Shown here: positions 47,848-48,364 of the stretch, in pieces
Layout: every line of letters starts with the position of its first letter
How positions within the stretch are numbered: the stretch's first letter is position 1
Assembly (NCBI GenBank): GCA_039096225.1
Contig: JBBPEB010000023.1
Coordinates: forward strand, 300,001-364,000
DNA: 64,000 bases
DNA from: Blastocystis sp. Blastoise
Taxonomy: Eukaryota; Sar; Bigyra; Opalinata; Blastocystidae
Reading direction: 5' to 3'
Program-made: the position numbers and the translations under genes
Notes under the pieces: model-generated
What the model was told of the DNA's origin: nothing
Database searches by the model: none
What the model saw: only the letters and a program-made list of their open reading frames with translations

Positions 47848-48364
47848 TTAATGTTTTAAATGAGATAAATCCATCCTAATATAATCTACACGGCTTTTAT
47901 TAATTTGAATAGAAGGAGTAACCCAAGTACCACGTCAAATCATTAAGAAAATTATTCAAAAACGGTAATTAAAAAAAAGAAAGAAATAGAAAAATAATTA
48001 AAGGATATAAGAACATTGTGTTCCTTGCCATTTAACATCTCCAAGACGTGCTTTACAGTTAGGACAATATATTTTGAATTCTACTTCATCAGAAACAGGA
48101 CACCATTTTGGAGGATCTTTAAGAAAATAAGATGTACACTCACGAACAATATGTTTATCCTTATATGACTTTTCTTTAGGAATTTCTTGTTGAAATTTTT
48201 CATGTCCTGTGCAATCATTCTCTGTGAAAAGTAATGCCCTACACATTTTGCAAGACATTACAGTAGTTAATTTAGTTTCTAATGATGATAAATAATTAAA
48301 ATAGAGATTTATCGAAGATTCAACGAGGAGTCATATATATACCATCTCTTGGCTGATCTTCCAT
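47848..48364 (-). CDS. YVH1: stand-alone YVH1/DUSP12-type zinc-binding protein (3 exons, 125 aa)
   Basis: Exons 48364-48343, 48278-48009 and 47933-47848 give 126 codons. The whole protein is the C-terminal zinc-binding domain of YVH1/DUSP12: SCKMCRALLF, then CTSYFLKDPPKWC, then YCPNCKARLGDVKW, then GTQCSCGTWVTPSIQIN and KSRVDYI. The phosphatase domain of YVH1 is absent; only seven residues (MEDQPRD) precede intron 1. In yeast and human Yvh1 the zinc domain, not the phosphatase, is what is needed for late 60S ribosome maturation (release of Mrt4), so the short form could keep that role. The CSC motif and everything after it come from exon 3, joined by an AT-AC intron. Read without that splice, the frame ends CSYIL-stop at 47998. 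Confidence 0.9.
47934..48008 (-). other. U12-type AT-AC intron in the YVH1-type gene
   Basis: On the minus strand the 75-base intron begins ATATCCTTTA, an exact minor-spliceosome donor. It has TTCTTAAT at 47949-47942 as a branch site, with the branch A nine to ten bases from the end, and ends GATTTGAC. Splicing makes the codon T|GT (Cys98) and continues into CGTWVTPSIQINKSRVD, the conserved end of the YVH1 zinc domain. No GT-AG alternative gives this. Confidence 0.93.

Follow-up and report, generated by a model that had tools for sequence, protein, structure and literature searches.

A probable U12-type AT-AC intron in a YVH1-like zinc-domain gene of Blastocystis sp. Blastoise, and a U6atac poorly complementary to its donor

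The locus considered here raises the question of whether 75 bases that begin with AT and end with AC, in a short gene resembling YVH1, form an intron and, if so, which spliceosome would remove them. The gene lies on the minus strand of the window, by which we mean the whole 64,000-nucleotide stretch that was analysed, and the window belongs to contig C32 of an assembly comprising 33.3 Mb in 34 contigs. Blastoise is a gut protist that the NCBI taxonomy assigns to Stramenopiles, Opalinata.

An AT-AC intron at a homology junction

Analysis of the minus strand confirmed, base for base, the AT-AC intron proposed in the initial annotation together with its donor, branch site and acceptor: intron 2 (Table 1) covers exactly 75 bases from 48008 to 47934, starts with ATATCCTT and ends with TTTGAC (TTCTTAATGATTTGAC). 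U12-type introns have the 5' splice site consensus RTATCCTT and a branch site close to TTCCTTRAY, with the branch A some 9-15 bases upstream of where the intron ends. The donor at 48008-48001 fits the former, and TTCTTAAT at 47949-47942, one pyrimidine off the latter, qualifies as a branch site of this type, its second A (47943) lying 9 bases ahead of the intron end. The AC acceptor sits at the homology junction, and the junction cannot slide: the exon ahead of the intron ends in T but the intron in C, and the intron starts with A but the next exon with G.

Table 1 Features of the YVH1-like gene (window coordinates) and of the minor snRNA genes (L, locus numbers)
Feature	Position	Strand	Remarks
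Exon 1	48343..48364	-	MEDQPRD and first base of E; product identical to P0001
Intron 1	48279..48342	-	64 bases, GT-AG, major type; GTATATATATGA...TATCATCATTAG
Exon 2	48009..48278	-	Rest of E, TKLTTV...KWQGTQCS and first base of C98
Intron 2	47934..48008	-	75 bases, AT-AC, very probably U12 type, phase 1
5' splice site ATATCCTT	48001..48008	-	Pairing with the genome's U11 calculated at −6.3 kcal/mol
Branch site TTCTTAAT	47942..47949	-	Branch A probably 47943; pairing with the genome's U12 calculated at −5.1 kcal/mol
3' splice site AC	47934..47935	-	At the homology junction
Exon 3 with stop	47848..47933	-	Rest of C98, GTWVTPSIQINKSRVDYIRMDLSHLKH; block conserved in 11 aligned proteins and yeast YVH1
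ACTTCTAATCA copies	L009:1443-1453, L010:1672-1682, L011:1686-1696, L012:1679-1689		
U6atac gene, only copy found	L010:1501-1617, G000:C21:544821-544937	-	Nucleotides 12-14 are GCC, not AAG

Removal of both introns, this one and the 64-base GT-AG intron 1, from the gene (start at 48364, stop codon at 47850-47848) yields a protein of 125 residues with the tail ...QCSCGTWVTPSIQINKSRVDYIRMDLSHLKH, which agrees at every residue with WA158_007830 (P0001), a public protein of Blastocystis sp. Blastoise; the public gene model thus already uses the AT-AC junction. The splice joins CSCG to TWVTPS...KSRVD as originally read, and the unspliced frame does stop at CSYIL. A search for GT-AG alternatives, extended to GC-AG, with donors from 120 bases before intron 2, acceptors to 60 bases after it and intron 1 held fixed, revealed no pair that keeps the frame into KSRVD.

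For an alignment, 11 of 78 homology matches, P0001 included, were picked from oomycetes, one Choristocarpus, two birds and two further sequences, and Q95-C96-S97-C98-G99, W101, P104, K110, S111 and D114 are invariant in all 11. A profile built from these proteins matched the YVH1 chain of 6n8m and four other PDB entries, which we take to be pre-60S structures, with E 4.6e-28 and CSCG aligned to CSCG, while the spliced peptide itself gave no Pfam match at E 0.1. The earlier assignment to the YVH1/DUSP12 zinc domain therefore stands as far as the domain is concerned: the conserved Cys residues and the C-terminal zinc domain ending CSCG-W-P-KSxVD are shared, and Cys98 is a putative zinc ligand by analogy with the family. 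Unlike YVH1/DUSP12, however, the protein lacks the N-terminal dual-specificity phosphatase domain, having only 16 residues ahead of the first domain Cys in a total of 125, and we therefore call it YVH1-like, zinc domain only. In length it resembles short oomycete homologues, found with a length rule that considered only about 61-194 residues. Based on homology, it probably acts, as YVH1 does, on pre-60S ribosomes.

The motifs alone are weak evidence for intron 2. The window holds 12 copies of RTATCCTT where 10.8 would be expected by chance, and the combination of donor, branch site and acceptor, found once, had a mean of 0.12 in simulation and appeared at least once in 10 of 100 simulated windows. 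What makes the intron secure is a junction exact to the base where homology needs it, the identity to P0001 over 125 of 125 residues, and the lack of any GT-AG or GC-AG alternative in the scanned range. That the segment is retained, the protein truly ending at CSYIL and the downstream similarity being a relic, would agree with a frame that is open as far as CSYIL; yet exon 3 carries the conserved block intact and in frame and supplies a stop codon of its own, none of the 11 aligned proteins departs from Cys98 or Gly99, and the public protein is the spliced form, which leaves retention very unlikely. An assembly or sequencing error imitating an intron, for which we found nothing in favour, appears less probable still, as such an error would have had to create a 75-base segment complete with donor, branch site and acceptor between exons that join at the homology junction, although the public record very probably derives from the same assembly and hence offers no independent check on this point. 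Homology thus establishes the gene structure.

Two other features of the window were recorded. A divergent TBC-domain-like gene, named by eye, lies from window:48682 onwards (+), with about 320 bases separating its ATG from the start of the YVH1-like gene. An uninterrupted open frame of 1944 residues occupies window:57951-63785 (+), in a stretch with 33% GC where the remainder of the window has 18-23%; by eye it looks surface-protein-like, with Ig-like modules that recur and a membrane segment at the C-terminus.

Minor-spliceosome components of the genome

The initial annotation had pointed to the minor spliceosomal snRNAs as a check, and a covariance search scoring the best candidates matched one gene each for U11, U12, U4atac and U6atac. 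Two exceeded their cut-offs clearly, namely U6atac (63.8 bits, cut-off 33) and U11 (62.9 bits, cut-off 39). U12 (46.8 bits) and the weakly matching U4atac (29.7 bits, E 0.045) remained below theirs, 53 in both cases, and at E 1 U4atac and U11 each also had a match below cut-off in one control genome. We nevertheless accept the U12 and U4atac identities on account of conserved or pairing stretches and a shared upstream element. The branch-binding stretch CUAAUGAGUAAGGAAA of U12 is intact; U4atac and U6atac are calculated to pair with −26.1 kcal/mol in stem II and −10.6 in stem I; and where the consensus has CCUUgUC opposite GACAAGG, Blastoise has CCUUAUC opposite GAUAAGG, a matched change in both partners. 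The upstream element, ACTTCTAATCA, lies 58-65 bases ahead of all four minor snRNA genes. It was found in 5 of the 46 loci examined (about 0.2 expected by base composition), these being the four snRNA genes and L043, which is the U6atac gene again, and was absent from the 41 other loci and from the window. We consider it probably to be an snRNA promoter element of Blastoise.

As for proteins, 25K was identified through matches to Ubiquitin_4 (E 3.7e-11) and to the PDB chain of the U11/U12 25 kDa protein (E 7.6e-9). A CHHC-finger search matched L078, L079 and L080, with the same family over cut-off in one control genome. As 48K, L078, the best of these matches, was rejected because it is TRM13, carrying zf-TRM13_CCCH as well, and L079 because GTSF1 fits better (E 2.3e-4) than 48K (E 0.15).

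Homology, the unique junction and the presence of minor snRNA genes in the same genome thus all support the U12-type class that had been assigned to intron 2, and we infer that 48008-47934 (-) is very probably an AT-AC intron of the U12 type, removed by the minor spliceosome, in a YVH1-like gene that encodes the zinc domain only. According to the calculated pairings, U11 would bind the donor and U12 the branch site, U4atac would deliver U6atac, and the minor spliceosome would excise the 75 bases in phase 1, which would complete Cys98-Gly99 and add the conserved TWVTPS...KSRVD tail; if intron 2 were retained, the predicted protein would end at CSYIL.

Other AT-AC introns and the Blastocystis background

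It had been suggested that a minor-spliceosome intron is rarely provable from protein homology and frame alone. This did not hold here: a Pfam domain (LSM, Sec7, DNA polymerase A, Rad51, NAGLU or protein kinase) spans the AT-AC junction in six of ten other spliced peptides, and U12 introns of subtype ST1 have been described, according to the portions of PMC5608401 consulted. In the remaining four of the ten peptides Pfam matched nothing. As all ten were picked by eye from 26 scanned loci and selected for ATATCCTT, they cannot alone demonstrate a donor consensus, and the donor was therefore assessed by fixing only ATATC, CCTTAAY and AC. By hand count, CTT followed ATATC at 19 of the 100 places listed out of 140, whereas the background, 415 ATATC sites from the window (intron 2 included) and five other loci, had 13 such cases (binomial 3e-10, a rough figure, since some places are repeats or overlap).

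Motif counting as proof of U12 introns was rejected, as the reversed-pattern controls exceeded the forward totals for three patterns (41 vs 77, 2 vs 28 and 140 vs 334 places), and a genome-wide number of U12 introns is consequently not claimed. A fourth pattern, with 152 places against 82 reversed, was inflated by dispersed repeats. One such repeat, ATATCCTTAATTTAG...TACGGTGTCTCACACAC...ATTGAC, has dozens of copies (e.g. C5:286918-286976) and makes up many of the listed places of the 152-place pattern, and a second, ATATCACGTGCTTTTCTTCATTTGATTCGGG..., occurs among the places of the 140-place pattern.

Minor introns are established in the genus. The sections of PMC5608401 (2017) available to us describe, for Blastocystis ST1, 346 U12-type introns spread over 319 genes, together with the complete set of four snRNAs and seven specific proteins, and state that U12-type introns and components are identifiable in ST7, while the accessible part of PMC10639083 gives 253 minor introns for ST1, AT-AC being the main subtype (196 of 253, 77%) and the median length 39 bp. 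Blastoise thus has in common with ST1, as far as these excerpts go, the genus, AT-AC ends, U12-type splicing and four snRNAs; in contrast to the short ST1 introns, the eleven hand-picked AT-AC introns here (intron 2, six Pfam-supported and four unsupported) measure 56-75 bases. GT-AG introns of 64 bases (window:48342-48279) and 60 bases (L077 1380-1620, -) were also seen, and for Blastocystis the same portions of PMC5608401 mention an intron-size peak at 30 bp as well as lengths of 31-38 bp. Our literature search found no paper on strain Blastoise. Intron 2 itself is ordinary for Blastocystis, one well-supported addition to a known set.

A U6atac that matches the donors poorly

The unexpected point is U6atac, whose change may be new or may be general in Blastocystis. 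Compared with Rfam RF00619, the Blastoise copy is over cut-off and keeps GAGAGAAGGUUAGCA, the U4atac-pairing stretches and the T-run end. However, the consensus UGAAAGGAGAGAAGG is changed to UGAGCCGAGAGAAGG in the alignment, so that G12, C13 and C14 stand in place of A12, A13 and G14, which lie opposite donor positions +8, +7 and +6; as RNA, the donor-binding stretch would read AGCCGAGAGAAGG, against AAAGGAGAGAAGG without the change. In this register U4-A16, C5-G15 and U9-A11 are kept and U8.G12 is a wobble, whereas C6 opposes C14 and U7 opposes C13. Complementarity to donor positions +4 to +8 therefore fails, with +4 and +5 paired, +6 and +7 unpaired and +8 reduced to G.U, and the donors of the genome still read CCTT despite the change.

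Calculated pairing on the eleven donors yielded only −0.9 to −2.9 kcal/mol with the genome's own U6atac, compared with −5.4 to −9.4 for a consensus U6atac and −4.3 to −7.3 for the own U11. The poor complementarity is a feature of the machinery rather than of intron 2. When a longer segment of the own U6atac was used, the best pairing moved to the second AAGG (−4.8), whereas the consensus segment stayed in its usual place (−8.8). As the second AAGG is normally needed to pair with U12, such a shifted donor pairing would be possible but awkward.

A second U6atac was not found in the genome search, in which the best candidates were scored. L044, the one further place that matches GAGAGAAGGTTAGCA with at most one mismatch, was considered as a copy with a normal donor-binding stretch but was not recognized as U6atac by cmscan. 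Separately, U6atac genes of other eukaryotes were sought in viral contigs, where none of 48 pattern matches resembled U6atac, as judged by eye from their flanks. Donors adapted to the changed U6atac of Blastoise (ATATCGGC) were absent among the 100 places listed of 140, one of which reads ATATCGGT.

Since the major spliceosome is known to remove AT-AC introns elsewhere, the bad match between U6atac and the donor could be taken to mean that intron 2 is a U2-type AT-AC intron removed by the major spliceosome. We regard this as very improbable, given a full-length U12-type donor and a U12-type branch site, which by calculation pair with U11 and U12 of this genome, respectively; six further AT-AC introns with homology support share the donor, though they were picked for it. 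Retaining the U12-type reading, we propose, as a tentative idea that we doubt somewhat more than we believe, that in this Blastocystis lineage the minor spliceosome acts on canonical AUAUCCUU donors with a U6atac lacking the +6/+7 donor helix. U11 alone might read the donor, followed by a two-pair U6atac contact, the shifted pairing at the second AAGG, or a protein.

The consulted part of PMC4980772 numbers the donor bases CC5/6 and their U6atac partners GG14/15. There, mutation of CC5/6 in a minor-intron donor was rescued in transfected CHO cells by U6atac changed at GG14/15, and rescue was complete only when a matching U11 was supplied as well. Our literature search on U6atac without donor complementarity returned no paper evidently about that subject, from which we do not claim that it is unpublished. 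If the proposal is true, donor recognition would be separated from a U6atac base pairing that mammalian mutant-suppressor experiments found necessary. The genome offers a natural test of a textbook step, with position 14 and its neighbours 12 and 13 changed and the donors still reading CCTT. If confirmed at the RNA level, this would raise the question of whether splicing can do without the U6atac pairing at +6/+7 or can replace it.
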